A stretch of DNA of 38,761 nucleotides from Parcubacteria group bacterium. GTDB lineage: Bacteria; Patescibacteriota; Minisyncoccia; Phycocordibacterales; Phycocordibacteraceae. The position numbers and the translations under genes were made by a program. The DNA is taken from assembly GCA_028286545.1 (NCBI GenBank), contig JAQBRJ010000015.1, positions 1-38,761 on the forward strand. Reading direction: 5' to 3'. A model generated the notes under the pieces. The model was not told where the DNA came from. It did not search any database and worked only from the letters and a program-made list of their open reading frames with translations. This document shows, piece by piece, positions 12,325-21,530 of this stretch. Each line of letters opens with the position of its first letter. Position 1 is the first letter of the stretch.

Positions 12325-15300
12325 ATGAGCGAAAAGGACAAGACTCCGCAGGTGCTAAAGAAATCCGACGCCTCGGCGCGTGAGGAGGTCATACTCGAGT
12401 TTTGGAAGGAGCACGATATCTTCCAAAAGAGCCTTCAAAAGGAAGCGCCCAACGGCGAGTTTGTCTTTTATGATGGTCCGCCATTTGCGACAGGTCTTCC
12501 GCACTCTGGCTCTCTCCTTTCCTCAGTTTCTAAAGATGTATTTCCGCGCTACAAGACAATGCGTGGCTTTAACGTGCGTCGTCGTTGGGGATGGGACACC
12601 CACGGGCTTCCTATTGAATCGCTCGTTGAGAAAAAACTTGGTCTCAAGAATAAGAAAGAGATACTCGAAGTTGGTATTGAAACATTTAATGAAACGGCAC
12701 GCTCAATGGTGCTTGAATATGTAAATGACTGGAAGAAGTACGTCGAACGCGTCGGTCGCTTTGTCGATTTTGATAATTCATACAAGACGCTCGACCCATC
12801 GTTTATGGAATCGGTATGGTGGGCACTCGCCGAGATAAACAAGAAGGGGAACTTGTACGAAGGTCGCAAAGTGCTCATGTATTGTCCGCACTGTGAGACT
12901 CCGCTCGCAAAGGCCGAGATCGCGATGGATAACACCTATAAAGATGTTACCGACGAAACCGCGACTGTTAAATTTAAACTTGTAGACCCAACAAAGTATG
13001 GATTGCCTGAGAATACCTACCTTCTCGCATGGACGACGACACCGTGGACGCTTCCCGGGAACGTCGCACTCGCCGTAGGGAAGGAGATTGCATATGGTCT
13101 GTACGAAAAAGATGGACAGAATGTAGTTGTTGCAAAAGATCTTGCTGAGAAAAATGGTCTCACTGATTTGAAACAAGAACTTTCTGGCGCTGACTTACTC
13201 GAAGCGCAATACGAACCTCTCTACGAACTCCCGAGAGTCGCAGCGCACACCGGCAAGAAGTGGCTCGTGCTACCTGCTGATTTCGTAAACACCGAAGACG
13301 GTACGGGTATCGTACACACCGCTGTCATTTATGGTGAAGATGACTATCAACTTGGTCTTGCGGAAGGGTTGCCAATGGTGCCGATCCTAAATCCAAATGC
13401 GACGTACAACAACGATGCACCAGAGTTTATTCGCGGTCAGTATATTCGCAAAGCGGAGGCGCTCATAAAGAACGATCTCGAAGAACGCGGACTTCTTTTT
13501 GCAAAAGCACCCTATACCCACTCGTACCCGCATTGTTATCGTTGTGGCACAGCACTTATCTTCAACGCGGTCTCGTCGTGGTTCATCAACATTCAGGCAA
13601 TCAAGGAACGCATGCTCGAAGAGAATCAAAAGATCACCTGGACTCCTGAGTACCTCAAAGAGGGAAGGTTCCGTCACAATCTTGAGACAGCACCAGATTG
13701 GACTATTTCTCGTAATCGCTTCTGGGCGACGCCCCTTCCTATTTGGAAAGATGCTCTCGGAAACGTAACCGTTATCGGTTCTATAGAAGAGCTCAAAGCT
13801 CATACAAAAACCAATGGCAATACGTATTATGTGATGCGTCATGGTCAGGCACACTCAAACGTTGAAGAACGTGGAAACTCCGATCCAAAGAAGGAGAATC
13901 CTCTTACAGACCTTGGTCGCAGCCAGGTGAACGAGACGGCAGAGGGTCTTAAGACTGCAGGTATCGAATATATCTATGTATCGCCCATGCCTCGTGCACA
14001 AGAAACGGCACATATTGTCGCGAAGACTCTCGGACTCTCTGAAGATCGCATCGTCACTGAGCCGCGGTTGATCGAAAATGATTTTGGTCAGATGGATGGA
14101 ATACTCATTAGTGAGTATGAGACGCGCTACGCACGACGTGCAGACAAAATGACGCAGTCGCCTGAAGGCGCCGAAGCGTGGCATGACATAAAGACTCGCA
14201 TGGCAGACGCTCTCTACGACATCGAGAGCAAGCACACTGCGAATACTATTCTTATCGTTTCTCACGAAGGACCAATTCAAATGCTCGAAGCAGGAGCTCG
14301 TGGATACGATGATAAGACTTCTGGCGAAGCGATTGAAGATTGGCGTTTCTGTCTCGAAACGGGACATGCGCGAAAGCTTGAGTTCGTGCCGCTTCCGCAC
14401 AATAAGCACTTTGAACTCGATCTGCACTTGCCATATATCGATCGCGTACAGCTTCAGAATGAGAAGGACGAACCGCTCACGCGTATTCCTGAAGTCGTCG
14501 ACTGCTGGGTCGAGTCTGGCTCAATGCCCTTTGCGGAATACCACTACCCGATGGAAGGTCGTGAAGAATTCGAAAAGCGTTCCCATGCAGATTTCATCTC
14601 AGAATATATCGGCCAGACACGCGCCTGGTTCTACTACCTGCACGCGATAAGTTTGTCATTGTTTGATACTGCAGCGTTTAAGAATGTCGTAACGACGGGA
14701 ACGGTGCTTGCTGGTGATGGTGCAAAGCTCTCGAAGAGCAAGATGAACTATACCGATCCGTATCATCTCTTTGATAACTATGGTGCCGATGCCTTCCGTT
14801 ACTACCTGATGTCGTCAGTGGTGATGCAGGCCGAAGACCTTACGTTCCGCGATGATGATGTAAAGGAATCGCACAATCGTGTGGTCGCGATGCTTCGCAA
14901 CGTGATGAGTTTCTATGATATGTATGCGGGTGAGGTGACAGAAAGCACTTCAACAACTGAGCACGTACTTGATCGTTGGATACGGGTTCGTCTTGCCGAC
15001 TTGATACGAAATGCGACAGAGTCGCTTGAGCGCTATGACGTCATCCGTGCAACACGCCCACTCCGTGATTTTATTGACGACCTTTCAACGTGGTATCTTC
15101 GTCGTTCACGCGAACGCATGAAGGGTGAGGATACGGCAGACAAGGCTGCTGCTCTCCAGACCCTCAGCTTCGTGCTTAAGGAACTTTCTCTTGTAATAGC
15201 GCCTGTCATGCCATTTATCGCCGAAGAGATATATCAGAAGCTCCGTACTGAATCTGATCCTGAGTCAGTACACTTGGCTTCGTGGCCAGAAGCAATGGAT

Positions 15301-15705
15301 GCAGCCGACGCAGAGCTTCTTGAGAATATGGCACGCGTTCGCGCGCTGGCATCTGAAGCGCTCATGCTTCGTCAGAAGGCAGACATGAAAGTTCGACAAC
15401 CTCTCGCGAGTCTTTCTATTCCTGAAGCATTGCCTGCAGATCTTTCGAATATTCTTGCCGAAGAAGTGAATGTGAAAAAAATAATCCCTGGTTCTGCAGA
15501 GCTTGTGCTCGATACGGTACTTACGCCTGAGCTAATCGCTGAGGGGGATGAGCGTACGTTTGCACGTGCCGTGGCCGAAGCGCGCAAGACCGAAGGTCTT
15601 GCGCCTCAGGATAAAGTTGAAGCGAAGCGAAGCGATGACGGTATCTACACCGCTGAACTCTCAACGGGCTCGGTGAAATTCTCACTCGTACGCAATGCGA
15701 CATAA
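12325..15705 (+). CDS. ileS: Isoleucyl-tRNA synthetase with inserted histidine phosphatase-like domain
   Basis: 'YDGPPFATGLPHSGSLLSSVSKDVFPRYKTMRGFNVRRRWGWDTHGLP', 'WTTTPWTLPGN', 'GDGAKLSKSKMNYTDP'. In-frame insert with 'YYVMRHGQAHSN' and 'LIVSHEGPIQML'. Confidence 0.95.
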   Translation: MSEKDKTPQVLKKSDASAREEVILEFWKEHDIFQKSLQKEAPNGEFVFYDGPPFATGLPHSGSLLSSVSKDVFPRYKTMRGFNVRRRWGWDTHGLPIESLVEKKLGLKNKKEILEVGIETFNETARSMVLEYVNDWKKYVERVGRFVDFDNSYKTLDPSFMESVWWALAEINKKGNLYEGRKVLMYCPHCETPLAKAEIAMDNTYKDVTDETATVKFKLVDPTKYGLPENTYLLAWTTTPWTLPGNVALAVGKEIAYGLYEKDGQNVVVAKDLAEKNGLTDLKQELSGADLLEAQYEPLYELPRVAAHTGKKWLVLPADFVNTEDGTGIVHTAVIYGEDDYQLGLAEGLPMVPILNPNATYNNDAPEFIRGQYIRKAEALIKNDLEERGLLFAKAPYTHSYPHCYRCGTALIFNAVSSWFINIQAIKERMLEENQKITWTPEYLKEGRFRHNLETAPDWTISRNRFWATPLPIWKDALGNVTVIGSIEELKAHTKTNGNTYYVMRHGQAHSNVEERGNSDPKKENPLTDLGRSQVNETAEGLKTAGIEYIYVSPMPRAQETAHIVAKTLGLSEDRIVTEPRLIENDFGQMDGILISEYETRYARRADKMTQSPEGAEAWHDIKTRMADALYDIESKHTANTILIVSHEGPIQMLEAGARGYDDKTSGEAIEDWRFCLETGHARKLEFVPLPHNKHFELDLHLPYIDRVQLQNEKDEPLTRIPEVVDCWVESGSMPFAEYHYPMEGREEFEKRSHADFISEYIGQTRAWFYYLHAISLSLFDTAAFKNVVTTGTVLAGDGAKLSKSKMNYTDPYHLFDNYGADAFRYYLMSSVVMQAEDLTFRDDDVKESHNRVVAMLRNVMSFYDMYAGEVTESTSTTEHVLDRWIRVRLADLIRNATESLERYDVIRATRPLRDFIDDLSTWYLRRSRERMKGEDTADKAAALQTLSFVLKELSLVIAPVMPFIAEEIYQKLRTESDPESVHLASWPEAMDAADAELLENMARVRALASEALMLRQKADMKVRQPLASLSIPEALPADLSNILAEEVNVKKIIPGSAELVLDTVLTPELIAEGDERTFARAVAEARKTEGLAPQDKVEAKRSDDGIYTAELSTGSVKFSLVRNAT

Positions 15706-16264: not shown

Positions 16265-16294
16265 AGAAATTGGTTCCGTAACATCTAGTAACCG

Positions 16295-16352
16295 AACCAC
16301 TACCTTAGTGGTTATAGTCCGTGGAACAAAGCTCTTTTCTAAGATAAGAGCT
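16295..16352 (+). promoter_or_regulatory. Tandem stem-loops in glmM leader
   Basis: AACCACTA-cct-TAGTGGTT (16295-16313) and AGCTCTT...AAGAGCT (16330-16352), then SD GAGGAG before ATG. Confidence 0.45.
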
Positions 16353-16377
16353 ACGCAGATTCCTTGAGGAGATAGTT

Positions 16378-17709
16378 ATGACCATAGACCGCACACGTAA
16401 GCTTTTTGGCACTGACGGCATGAGAGGAAAGGCAAACGTTGTACTTACTCCCGATATCGCACTACGTCTTGGCCAAGTCGCTGGTGCAAAATTCAAGACA
16501 AATAAAGAACGTCATACAGTTTTGATCGGAAAGGATACTCGTCGATCAAGCTATATGATCGAAAGCGCTCTTGTTGCTGGATTCACTTCAGCAGGCATGG
16601 ATGTCGAATTGACCGGACCTATTCCAACTCCGGCAGTTGCAATGCTTACCTCAAGCATGCGTGCTGATCTCGGAGTCATGATCTCTGCGTCGCATAATCC
16701 ATTCGAGGATAACGGCATTAAGCTGTTTAATGCGCTTGGCAATAAACTCACTGACCAAGAAGAAATCGAGATTGAGTCTTTGATGGGAATGAAAATAGCC
16801 AATCTCCCAACTGGCGCTGGTCTGGGTAAAGTGAAACGTATTGAGGGAAGTCAGGAGCGATATGTCGAACTAGTCAAACAAACATTTCCAAAAGGATATT
16901 CACTCGACGGACTGCGTATTGTAGTGGATTGCGCACATGGCGCCGCCTACGAAGTTGCACCGAAAGTCCTTAGTGAGCTCGGTGCTGAAGTCATCGCAAT
17001 CGGTGTAAGTCCTAATGGATTGAATATCAATGATAAATGCGGCTCTACTGAACCTGCATCAATTATCCAAAAGGTAAGGGAAGTTCGAGCTGATATTGGT
17101 ATTGCTCTCGATGGAGATGCCGATCGAGTGCTTATCGTTGATGAGACAGGAACGATGATAGATGGAGATCATCTCCTTGCTGCAATCGCGACCTCATGGG
17201 GCAAGGAACGTCTTGGCGGGTCAAAACTGGTAGGTACAGTGCTGTCGAATCTTGCCTTTGAACAGTACCTTGCGCGAATCGGTATAGAACTTATTCGTGC
17301 AAAAGTAGGCGATCGATATGTGCTCGAAGAAATGCGTACAGCGAGTTGCAAGCTTGGTGGAGAGGAGTCTGGTCACATCATACTGTCTGATTACGTAACC
17401 ACGGGTGATGGACTCATCGCGGCCCTTCAACTGCTTGCGATTGCTAGGGAAAGAAAAGAAACCATTTCGCGAGTTACACATCTCTATGAATCCTTTCCTC
17501 AAGCAAAACGCAATATCGTTGCTGATCGTTCACGACTGACTGAAGTGAAAATAATAGAAGCTATTTCAGAAGCTGAAAAGCATCTCGGAACTGACGGCAG
17601 GTTGGTAGTACGTCCTTCTGGCACAGAGTCGGTCATACGTCTTATGGCTGAAGGGAGGGATAGACTTCAAATTGATCAAGTTATAGAAAAACTCGTTCAA
17701 GCATTCTAA
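16378..17709 (+). CDS. glmM: Phosphoglucosamine mutase
   Basis: 'KLFGTDGMRGKANVVLTPDIALRLGQ', 'VMISASHNPFEDNGIKLFN', 'IALDGDADRVLIVDE', 'LVVRPSGTESVIRLMAEG'. Confidence 0.95.
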   Translation: MTIDRTRKLFGTDGMRGKANVVLTPDIALRLGQVAGAKFKTNKERHTVLIGKDTRRSSYMIESALVAGFTSAGMDVELTGPIPTPAVAMLTSSMRADLGVMISASHNPFEDNGIKLFNALGNKLTDQEEIEIESLMGMKIANLPTGAGLGKVKRIEGSQERYVELVKQTFPKGYSLDGLRIVVDCAHGAAYEVAPKVLSELGAEVIAIGVSPNGLNINDKCGSTEPASIIQKVREVRADIGIALDGDADRVLIVDETGTMIDGDHLLAAIATSWGKERLGGSKLVGTVLSNLAFEQYLARIGIELIRAKVGDRYVLEEMRTASCKLGGEESGHIILSDYVTTGDGLIAALQLLAIARERKETISRVTHLYESFPQAKRNIVADRSRLTEVKIIEAISEAEKHLGTDGRLVVRPSGTESVIRLMAEGRDRLQIDQVIEKLVQAF

Positions 17710-17713
17710 TACG

Positions 17714-17745
17714 CTGGTCACTTCCTATGGGGTGACCAGTTTTTC
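17714..17745 (+). terminator. Intrinsic terminator of glmM
   Basis: CTGGTCAC...GTGACCAG then TTTTTC. Confidence 0.85.
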
Positions 17746-17747
17746 TT

Positions 17748-17775
17748 TATTGCAGTTCCAATAGCGTGCATGAGT
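17748..17775 (+). repeat. 28-nt imperfect direct repeat, left copy
   Basis: TATTGCAGTTCCAATAGCGTGCATGAGT; 25 of 28 identical to 19565-19592. Confidence 0.75.
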
Positions 17776-17796
17776 GCGCGCCAACGTTAGAAACAA

Positions 17797-17826
17797 AGAA
17801 AGACCGTCCGAAAGGGCGGTCTTTCT
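17797..17826. terminator. Strong hairpin with GAAA loop, terminator-like
   Basis: AGAAAGACCGTCC-GAAA-GGGCGGTCTTTCT, 13 bp with one G.T wobble. Confidence 0.6.
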
Positions 17827-17842
17827 GGTTCAAACGGATGAG

Positions 17843-17871
17843 TTGACTATATCTACTTTGTATGGTATTTA
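17843..17871 (+). promoter_or_regulatory. Sigma70-like promoter for the 18051 gene
   Basis: TTGACT, 17-nt spacer, TATTTA. Confidence 0.55.
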
Positions 17872-17961
17872 TATATTTGGCCATTTGGTCCTTAACAATG
17901 GAGGTTAGCATGCGACGAATATGTTAGGGCTGTAGCCCCATAACGCACCAGAAGAGATTTG

Positions 17962-18046
17962 ATTCTCCTCAATAATTGGTGCGTCAGCGCACCAATTATT
18001 CCCAATCGGAGCGACCGGTCTTTCGAAGGCCGCCGCGGAGGAGAAT
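17962..18046 (+). promoter_or_regulatory. Structured 5' leader with anti-SD/SD helix enclosing two hairpins
   Basis: ATTCTCCTC (17962-17970) is the exact reverse complement of GAGGAGAAT (18038-18046); between them a perfect 13-bp hairpin (17971-18000) and CGGTCTT-tcg-AAGGCCG. Confidence 0.55.
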
Positions 18047-18050
18047 TGCT

Positions 18051-19463
18051 ATGAACACGAATCGCAAGAACGAATCGCCTGTTGGTCTGCCTCGGGAAAT
18101 TGAGGTCACGATTCAACAGGGCAGGCACCCGAAGACGGGTCTGTCGCAGTGGACGGGAAGCTATCAGCTGGAAGCGCCTTACAGCGCCGACAGCGTCAAA
18201 ACTTCCAATCCCTTTGCCGCAGCACTGGGTCACCTTATCGATCCGGAACCGATCACCGTCAAGGTGGTCGTCAACGAGAAAGAGTGGAGTGGCCCGCTTG
18301 CAGAAGGCGAGATCTGGATGGTTCAGCCGAACAATTACCTGCCGGATTCCAAGATCATGTTCGCTGACGCGCTCTATCGGGCAAAAAACTCGCCCGTTGT
18401 GCGCGACTCATCGTGGATGCATCCCATGGTACTCGACATGTTCGAGCGCATGGCATGGGATATCCGCAGCGTCAGCTGTGGAGGACTGATCAAACTCGGC
18501 GCCTGGCGCTGGGAAGATCGGCACGTGTTCGAGAGCGGGCGATCGGTAAAGCCGCATCGTTCATTCAAAGAAACGCGTGAGGGTGGTCTTAAGGCTATTC
18601 GTTCCGAAGCCGGCTGGCTCCATCTCACGATCGAGTTCGGCAAAGAAGCGCCGACCGAAGAAGATTACTACCATTACGAGTATTGGACGGAAGAGTTCGT
18701 TATTCCGCTTCATGAGTGTAAGCCCAACTGGACCTACCTGCATGATTTCTCGGGTCCTTACGAGGTCGGTCATACCATCTACGTCGACAGTGGGGAAGCC
18801 TTCAGCCTCCCGCTCCTTCTCAAGGGAACGGACCGAGGGCTGGCGGGGCCATTCGATCAGAGTATGATCGGACGGCAGTTGGCCCGCGTACCTGGGTCTA
18901 TCGACTATGACGCGCTCATTACGCGCGTTCTTCCCGGATGCATCTTGAAGCTCTCCGACCGTGGAGTTGCCGAACAGGTGCGAGCGTCGAGGTGGGACTT
19001 TATTGGCGTTGTGTCCTCGGTTGCGCGCCGTGCAAACGGCGCGTGGGAAGTGATGTTCGAACAGAACACACTATGGTTCAAGTCCGGGCATGCCTGGCGT
19101 AAGCTTGGCATGCCGCATCAGAAGCGGTCATACCGAGGGGACGCGTGGACTCTGCCGAAAGAGCAGGTGCCATTCCTCGGATTTCGCTCGCTCTTGTTTC
19201 AGTCCCTTGAGTTGCCCGAGCAAACAGGCTTGGTTCCTCAGTATCAGCTCGTCCGAGACTCCGACGGCGACATCGTTGGGTTTGAGGGTGAGATGGAGCT
19301 GCGGGGTCGTCTGTGCAGCGAGCATCTACTTTCTGACGGAACCCATCCGTCCAGGAAGCGGGCTGGATCGACCTACTGCTACATCTACGATCCGTCGTCT
19401 TATGATTTCTATCCGAGCCAGTTTGATTTGCCGGAAGAACTCTGGAGGCGATTTGGACTATGA
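18051..19463 (+). CDS. Large orphan hypothetical protein (470 aa)
   Basis: SD GGAGGAG 5-10 nt before ATG (MNTNRKNESPVGLPREIEVT...), own promoter and terminator; no family recognised. Confidence 0.75.
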   Translation: MNTNRKNESPVGLPREIEVTIQQGRHPKTGLSQWTGSYQLEAPYSADSVKTSNPFAAALGHLIDPEPITVKVVVNEKEWSGPLAEGEIWMVQPNNYLPDSKIMFADALYRAKNSPVVRDSSWMHPMVLDMFERMAWDIRSVSCGGLIKLGAWRWEDRHVFESGRSVKPHRSFKETREGGLKAIRSEAGWLHLTIEFGKEAPTEEDYYHYEYWTEEFVIPLHECKPNWTYLHDFSGPYEVGHTIYVDSGEAFSLPLLLKGTDRGLAGPFDQSMIGRQLARVPGSIDYDALITRVLPGCILKLSDRGVAEQVRASRWDFIGVVSSVARRANGAWEVMFEQNTLWFKSGHAWRKLGMPHQKRSYRGDAWTLPKEQVPFLGFRSLLFQSLELPEQTGLVPQYQLVRDSDGDIVGFEGEMELRGRLCSEHLLSDGTHPSRKRAGSTYCYIYDPSSYDFYPSQFDLPEELWRRFGL

Positions 19464-19473
19464 CTAACCTTCT

Positions 19474-19530
19474 GGGGTGCCTTTCGGCACCCCACCCCTG
19501 CTCCGTGGCGAAATCCACGGAGCATTTTTG
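19474..19530 (+). terminator. Tandem hairpin terminator
   Basis: GGGGTGCC-tttc-GGCACCCC, then TGCTCCGTGG...CCACGGAGCA-TTTTTG. Confidence 0.85.
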
Positions 19531-19564
19531 TATTTGGAATAAAGATCGAGTCTCTTTCTTTCTG

Positions 19565-19592
19565 TATTGCAGTTCCAACAGCGTCCACGAGT
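19565..19592 (+). repeat. 28-nt imperfect direct repeat, right copy
   Basis: TATTGCAGTTCCAACAGCGTCCACGAGT; see 17748-17775. Confidence 0.75.
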
Positions 19593-19652
19593 TCGTGGAA
19601 CCGCAGTAGAACCTGGTCCGTATAGCACGTAAGCACGTTATACTAGTCGCAT

Positions 19653-21530
19653 ATGCCTCCTGAAGCTGAGAAATCCGCCCTCGACTCCCTTAACGAGCGA
19701 CTATACCGCCCAACCCCGACTGCTGCAGCCGGCGTGCCTGAATATTCTAATCAAGCACAAACCGAACAATACGGTTGGACGCCCCCACCCCCACCCCCTC
19801 CGCCAAAGCCGCATATGTCGTGGACGCTGCGTTTCCTCATTGGTACTGGCATATTTTTCGTACTCGCCGGAGCTGTTGCAGCTGCGCTCGTTATCTATGG
19901 TGGCCGTTCTATTTCAAGTGATCACGTTGTCATAACCATCACGACGCCGTCACCAACGATTGCGAGTGGAGATACGGTACCTATTGTCATCACCGTACAC
20001 AATGGAAACCCAACGGCGATGAACGACGCAAATCTCTATGTAACACTCCCGCCAGGCACGCGCGATGGTACCGATGCGAATACCGCACTTCCTCAATATG
20101 CCGATACCCTTGGCACCGTGGACGCAGGAGGGGATTCAACGAGAACCGTACAAGCGAAACTCTTTGGTACCGAGCACCAGGTGTTACAAATTCCTGTGCG
20201 CGTTGAGTACCATGTGACTGGCTCGAGTGCGTTGTATGTCGCAAACAAACAATACGAAGTGACTGTCTCTACGTCACCGATTAGCGTACAAGTGCAAACA
20301 CTTTCTGAAAGTGCATCGGGTCAGCCACTAACGCTTTCGGTAATCGTGCGCTCGAATGCCACAACACCACTCAATGATCTTTCCGTTGTTGCAGAGTTTC
20401 CGTTTGGATTTTCGCTTACGTCTGCAACACCAAAGCCAGCGCAAGGTTCCTACTTTGTCCTAGGTGCACTTGCTCCTGGCGAAGAGAAGGTCATAAAGAT
20501 AACAGGTGTGCTTACCGGCGAGAGTGCCGACCAGCGTGTTTTCCGCTTTACAGCCGGAAGTGCAAATCCTGACGGCACCAGCACGCTCGGCGTCACGTAT
20601 TCAAATGGCAGCGCTACAGTGTCGCTGACAAAACCATTCCTCGCCACGTCGCTCTCACTTAATGGTCAGGCTGCAGACGCCGCTACCGCAATTCCTGGCG
20701 CCACGTTCTCAGCACTTCTTTCGTGGCAGAACAGTCTCACGGTGCCTCTTACTGACGCAAACATTCAAGTCGCGCTTTCCGGAAATGCACTCGATACGTC
20801 AGCCATTAAAGGTGGTACGGGTTTCTATCGCTCAAGCGACAAGACGGTAATCTTTTCGAAAGATACGAATGGTTCGCTTGCTACGCTACAGGCAGGGGAT
20901 AGCGGTGTCGGGTCGTTCTCATTTGCGGTGAAATCAGAGTCGCAACTCGCTGGTGTTACAAACCCTTCGGTCACTCTCACGGTCTCTGCGACAGGAAAAT
21001 ATTCCCAACAAGGTAATGCTCCTCAGTCATTGACCTCGACACTTACGCGCACGATAAAAATAAATACGAACGTCGCTCTTACGTCTACGCTCTCTCGTAC
21101 GGGCGGAAGCGTTGCAAATACAGGCCCCGTTCCACCAAAGGCAGGCACTGAAACTACATACACGGTTCAGCTGTCGGCACGCAATTCACTTAATTCCGTG
21201 GGTGGTGCGAAAATGACCGCCGTACTGCCGGCGTATGTACGTTTCGTTGCTCCGCAGCTGGCAGCTGGCGCCTCCAACCCTATAACGTATGATGATTCGA
21301 GCCGAACCGTTACCTGGAACGTCGGCGACGTGAACCCAAAGGCCACCGCAACGGCAAGCTTCCAGATCGCATTCTTGCCAAGCACGTCCCAAAACGGTAC
21401 AAGTCCTATAGTGCTTGGAACGCAGACTTTTACCGGAATCGACCGCTTTACGCAGTCGCAGGTAACGTCGACTGCGCCCGCGCTCACGTCTGAGCTTCCA
21501 AACAACGCATCATCTGGCATCGTTCACTAA
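19653..21530 (+). CDS. Membrane-anchored, proline-rich surface protein with DUF11/Ig-like repeat character
   Basis: N-terminal P8 tract, single TM 'FLIGTGIFFVLAGAVAAALVIYGG', Ser/Thr-rich beta-type extracellular region. Confidence 0.75.
   Translation: MPPEAEKSALDSLNERLYRPTPTAAAGVPEYSNQAQTEQYGWTPPPPPPPPKPHMSWTLRFLIGTGIFFVLAGAVAAALVIYGGRSISSDHVVITITTPSPTIASGDTVPIVITVHNGNPTAMNDANLYVTLPPGTRDGTDANTALPQYADTLGTVDAGGDSTRTVQAKLFGTEHQVLQIPVRVEYHVTGSSALYVANKQYEVTVSTSPISVQVQTLSESASGQPLTLSVIVRSNATTPLNDLSVVAEFPFGFSLTSATPKPAQGSYFVLGALAPGEEKVIKITGVLTGESADQRVFRFTAGSANPDGTSTLGVTYSNGSATVSLTKPFLATSLSLNGQAADAATAIPGATFSALLSWQNSLTVPLTDANIQVALSGNALDTSAIKGGTGFYRSSDKTVIFSKDTNGSLATLQAGDSGVGSFSFAVKSESQLAGVTNPSVTLTVSATGKYSQQGNAPQSLTSTLTRTIKINTNVALTSTLSRTGGSVANTGPVPPKAGTETTYTVQLSARNSLNSVGGAKMTAVLPAYVRFVAPQLAAGASNPITYDDSSRTVTWNVGDVNPKATATASFQIAFLPSTSQNGTSPIVLGTQTFTGIDRFTQSQVTSTAPALTSELPNNASSGIVH

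Follow-up and report, generated by a model that had tools for sequence, protein, structure and literature searches.

The Shine–Dalgarno (SD) sequence of an orphan gene in this Parcubacteria contig is hidden by an RNA fold, and this hiding is real and non-random. We tentatively read the leader that forms the fold (about 17878-18050) as a default-off, strand-exchange translational attenuator on a horizontally acquired single-gene unit, with a ribosome on a short leader ORF as its likeliest trigger; we hold this reading at somewhat less than even confidence. The orphan gene would probably stay off in the absence of an activating signal. The window, 38,761 nt in length, is a single contig from a genome of 0.67 Mb, 84% complete, and all readings of regulation given here are predictions from one sequence.

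Genomic setting of the orphan gene

The glycyl-tRNA synthetase of the genome places it in Patescibacteria, near Candidatus Kaiserbacteria and Adlerbacteria. In relatives from these two groups, the gene order is IleRS-RecO-DUF11-GlyRS, and neither glmM nor a relative of the orphan gene was found in their RecO-DUF11 interval. Here, the leader and the orphan gene sit between glmM and a DUF11 protein gene, and, compared with nearby genomes, glmM and the orphan gene form an insertion between recO and the DUF11 gene (16265-19652). Counting the present genome, glmM was found in only 8 of the 92 genomes of the genus. The features of this region are the following:

16378-17709, glmM (TIGR01455)
17742..17778, plus strand, imperfect 37-bp direct repeat, upstream copy
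17843..17871, plus strand, probable promoter (TTGACT-17-TATTTA, with TGG just 5' of the -10)
18051..19463, plus strand, orphan ORF of 470 aa without a recognisable family
19499..19530, plus strand, intrinsic terminator of the orphan unit
19559..19595, plus strand, direct repeat, downstream copy, 86% identical to the upstream copy
19653-21530, DUF11 protein gene

The orphan unit thus consists of a promoter, a leader, an ORF and a terminator, bracketed by the 37-bp direct repeats, and terminators are present on both sides of it. The G+C content of the ORF (56.5%) lies at the 99th percentile among genes of the genome longer than 300 codons. Judging from these sequence features, the gene is best read as a recently inserted, horizontally acquired mobile single-gene unit. 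No further copies of the 37-bp repeat were found elsewhere in the genome sequence (84% complete), and the pair is a possible integration site of some type. A comparison by eye recognised no attC consensus in the repeats, and the one tyrosine recombinase found in the 84%-complete genome is on another contig and was not typed as IntI.

The promoter had been described as good. It has a TTGACT hexamer, a 17-nt spacing, a TG one base upstream of the -10 and a -10 (TATTTA) that matches the consensus at only three of six positions, and we rate it as fair; it was not among the reports of a consensus promoter scan. Transcription of the unit is expected to start near 17878. An alternative start of the orphan ORF at TTG 17976 was rejected, as it lies inside a hairpin and lacks an SD.

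Several other observations concern the surroundings. Each copy of the 37-bp repeat adjoins a local hairpin. A second strong hairpin, AGAAAGACCGTCC/GGGCGGTCTTTCT (17797-17826), lies between the glmM terminator and the orphan promoter and looks like an extra terminator or insulator. The isoleucyl-tRNA synthetase (12325-15705) contains, inserted into its catalytic region, a domain of the histidine-phosphatase family (PF00300, E 2.7e-33, residues 502-662), a fusion that deserves comparison across Kaiserbacteria and Adlerbacteria.

Homologues of the orphan protein were not detected in 106 genomes of the family, 297 of the order and 384 of the phylum. The weak matches that we inspected were spurious, one of them sitting in an adenosine-deaminase-like ORF. 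Searches of GTDB contigs, IMG/VR, phages and plasmids gave no match either, nor did Pfam, NCBIfam, PHROGs, PADLOC or PDB, and an AlphaFold2 prediction without an alignment (pLDDT 33) was useless.

A composite fold hides the Shine–Dalgarno sequence

In the fold that hides the ribosome-binding site (OFF), the following elements are involved:

17962..17970, plus strand, anti-SD strand ATTCTCCTC
17971..18000, plus strand, perfect 13-bp hairpin with a TCAG loop, abutting the anti-SD:SD helix
18011..18036, plus strand, third hairpin (18016-18022/18026-18032 plus 18011-18013/18034-18036)
18038..18046, plus strand, SD strand GAGGAGAAT, partner of 17962-17970

The preliminary description had proposed that these elements conceal the SD of the 18051 ORF, and its pairings hold. 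The anti-SD is complementary to the SD strand at 9 of 9 positions, the arms of the 13-bp hairpin (17971-17983 and 17988-18000) match at 13 of 13 with the loop TCAG, and the 7-bp hairpin is found at 18016-18022/18026-18032, where extension makes it 3 bp longer. On its 5' side, the 9-bp anti-SD:SD helix runs without a gap into the 13-bp hairpin, which is separated from the SD by the third hairpin. The model gives the anti-SD:SD pairing a probability of 0.97 at 37 °C.

The pairings and their non-randomness were computed, and the predicted fold is highly non-random. The 85-nt core has a minimum free energy of -41.7 kcal/mol, against -22.3 ± 3.2 in dinucleotide shuffles (z -6.1), none of which, out of 3000, reached as low a value; it also falls in the lowest 0.13% of 14,842 equal-length windows covering about two thirds of the genome. 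A perfect complement of at least 9 bases to the last 20 nt before the start was found at 5 of 404 gene starts, among which only the orphan gene has a recognised SD of at least 4 bases inside the complement. Deep burial of the SD alone is common in this genome, with an unpaired probability below 2% in 14 of 180 SD-bearing genes. What stands out is how long and how perfect the composite fold is.

A competing hairpin and the order of folding

A second pairing, absent from the preliminary description, uses the same strands:

17943..17984, plus strand, competing (ON) hairpin (17943-17950/17977-17984, 17951-17952/17969-17970, 17954-17957/17964-17967)

Here ACGCACCA (17943-17950) is exactly complementary, over 8 bp, to TGGTGCGT (17977-17984), which belongs to the 5' arm of the 13-bp hairpin, and 17951-17957 pairs with the anti-SD, so that the ON hairpin captures both. 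Its upstream strand mimics the two partners used in the OFF fold, nested in the right order: CGCACCA resembles the 3' arm and AGAG the SD. Apart from a 6-nt loop and a single internal loop of 6 nt, the hairpin consists mostly of plain helix. When the upstream part was shuffled while the anti-SD and the arm were kept fixed, a prefix fold as stable arose in 15 of 5000 shuffles (p about 0.003); the shuffle p values, including that for the leader ORF below, should be discounted, as the features were chosen after inspection.

Folding order and energies were likewise computed. In growing transcripts, the predicted probability of the ON helix is 0.99 at 17982 and 0.98 at 17988; the helix is contested when the transcript ends at 17994 and has given way by 18000, and the SD is predicted to be clamped after 18048 is transcribed. 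On the full-length leader, OFF is favoured over ON by a predicted 8.6-11 kcal/mol. Refolding from ON to OFF has a predicted barrier of about 10.4 kcal/mol and may be slower than transcription of the last 46 nt, a comparison that depends on an inferred conversion of the barrier into seconds with a large uncertainty. Transcription attenuation was rejected, as no U-run follows the 13-bp hairpin on its 3' side.

These predictions suggest the following mechanism. In the nascent leader, the strand 17943-17957 would first take the arm 17977-17984 and the anti-SD 17964-17970, giving the ON fold. With the appearance of 17988-18000, and next of the SD, the arm would move to its place in the 13-bp hairpin and the SD would be clamped by the anti-SD, giving the OFF fold. 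Any factor that keeps the ON hairpin in place during this last step would leave the SD free and the gene on, and the likeliest such event would be a ribosome on a five-codon ORF, MRRIC; the stop codon of this ORF falls within strand 1 of the upstream hairpin. It is the exchange in the cell that we infer here, and we consider a regulated ON/OFF exchange to be more probable than not.

A putative leader ORF as a candidate trigger

The upstream part of the leader holds two further features:

17900..17927, plus strand, leader ORF MRRIC* (SD GGAGG 17900-17904; ATG CGA CGA ATA TGT TAG 17910-17927)
17923..17944, plus strand, strand-1:strand-2 hairpin GTTAGGGC/GCCCcaTAAC, overlapping the leader stop codon and weak in the ensemble

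The putative five-codon ORF had been overlooked in the preliminary description. Its SD lies 5 nt before the ATG (GGAGG-TTAGC-ATG), an ideal spacing, and shuffling the leader produced an SD-led short ORF in 68 of 5000 cases (p about 0.014). The upstream hairpin, which had been described correctly, pairs GTTAGGGC (17923-17930) with GCCCcaTAAC (17935-17944). Considering the geometry, a ribosome at the MRRIC stop codon would end a few bases short of the ON helix. Masking 17890-17941, as a mimic of the leader ribosome, left the predicted ON/OFF balance unchanged, because the strand-1:strand-2 hairpin and the ON helix share only 2 bases. MRRIC was matched to no known arrest motif; this, the unchanged balance, the small overlap and the predicted preference for OFF at full length count against the attenuator reading. 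The leader ORF is the best single candidate for the trigger.

Comparison with known systems

The leader combines three attenuator traits: a predicted SD-led leader ORF, an SD-sequestering hairpin and an alternative hairpin with one strand in common. In anatomy, it appears to be near attenuators of the erm, cat and cmlA type, a likeness that does not amount to a claim of membership. The cmlA cassette has its own promoter, a strong leader SD, a leader peptide of 9 aa and alternative stem-loops in which the SD is hidden (PMC8876359). The orphan unit resembles it in being mobile and confined to a single gene, and in having its own promoter, an SD-led short leader ORF, alternative stem-loops and default SD sequestration. 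It differs in that its leader peptide has 5 codons and is unrelated, its gene is not among the recognised resistance genes, attC is not recognised and folding does not predict ribosome dependence.

As in ermB and ermC, two mutually exclusive hairpins have one common strand (PMC11264731, PMC8876359). Folding of the full-length ermB leader with RNAfold gives the OFF hairpin only, and a truncated RNA is needed for the ON hairpin (PMC11264731); the orphan leader likewise gives OFF alone at full length and ON when truncated. However, hairpin 1:2 blocks 2:3 in the erm leaders, whereas here the two overlap by 2 nt only, and no macrolide-arrest peptide was identified in the orphan leader. Translational ON riboswitches that work by strand exchange (PMC10907184) also have a switching strand common to an upstream fold and an SD-sequestering platform, but the leader described here has no recognised aptamer or Rfam family.

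The order of folding has a further likeness. In hok-type RNAs, a metastable nascent hairpin delays the inhibitory fold, as the early hairpin may do in the orphan leader. The hok gene, however, encodes a small toxin and is accompanied by an antisense RNA, while the orphan protein has 470 aa.

Alternative explanations

The preliminary description had left open a riboswitch, a thermometer or the target of a trans-acting factor, and it had not considered a leader-peptide attenuator, which suits the list of parts better. A static insulator, meaning a strong hairpin that simply holds down translation of the foreign gene and has no second, regulated state, is a possibility to be taken seriously, although we consider it unlikely. 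The OFF fold is very stable, with the SD unpaired at a predicted 0.017 at 37 °C, and the deep SD burial found in other genes of the genome also fits, but the competing fold (15/5000) and the SD-led leader ORF (68/5000) would then be unexplained coincidences. Another explanation keeps the same two-state leader, but a small molecule, a protein or a trans-acting RNA would hold the ON hairpin (17943-17984), and the leader ORF would be incidental. The layout would fit the general riboswitch scheme (PMC10907184), and the ON fold is predicted to form without a ribosome. On the other hand, the leader matches no Rfam family at the gathering threshold, and relaxing the threshold gave only chance-level matches (E 1.1-2.2), so that a known riboswitch class is not supported. 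The ON hairpin also appears to lack an aptamer-typical junction or pseudoknot, and no conservation marks a binding site: neither blastn, nor a pattern search, nor a single-sequence covariance model found homologous leaders in the genomes searched, and aptamer conservation is not visible for this reason. We regard such a ligand-held or protein-held switch as unlikely.

Given the perfect 13-bp inverted repeat inside a repeat-flanked insertion, the 30-nt palindrome might instead work as DNA, for example as an operator or recombination site of the inserted unit, with the RNA fold a by-product. Yet it is located some 90 nt past the expected start, the anti-SD:SD helix prolongs its arm exactly, it differs from the flanking repeat, and the lack of an attC consensus by eye and the position of the sole tyrosine recombinase found also speak against this role, which is very improbable. 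Burial of the SD in a hairpin is what a thermometer would have, but the helices here are long and perfect and in part rich in G+C, and the weak pairs that typify thermometers are absent from them. In the model, the SD is unpaired at 0.4% at 15 °C, 1.7% at 37 °C and 7.8% at 60 °C, remaining more than 90% paired up to that point, and at 0.15 (about 85% paired) at 70 °C. Thermometer function is disfavoured by these predictions, to the point of being extremely improbable. A more novel version would be a co-transcriptionally timed translational switch, lineage-specific within Patescibacteria, in which a nascent hairpin that mimics both partners of the OFF fold leaves the newly acquired orphan gene translatable only on fresh transcripts or only with a ribosome on the leader ORF; we consider this version quite improbable, although, if true, it would represent a new attenuator class on a repeat-flanked mobile unit.

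Significance for Patescibacteria

The one paper found that links Patescibacteria with riboswitches discusses the latter as candidate tools for expression control; it describes the control of differentiation in these cells as unknown and regulation of translation as likely to be key (PMC11665869). A compact translational switch from Patescibacteria would be both a lead on such control and a part for expression tools. If the leader travels with its gene, it would also illustrate how a foreign orphan gene can arrive pre-silenced.
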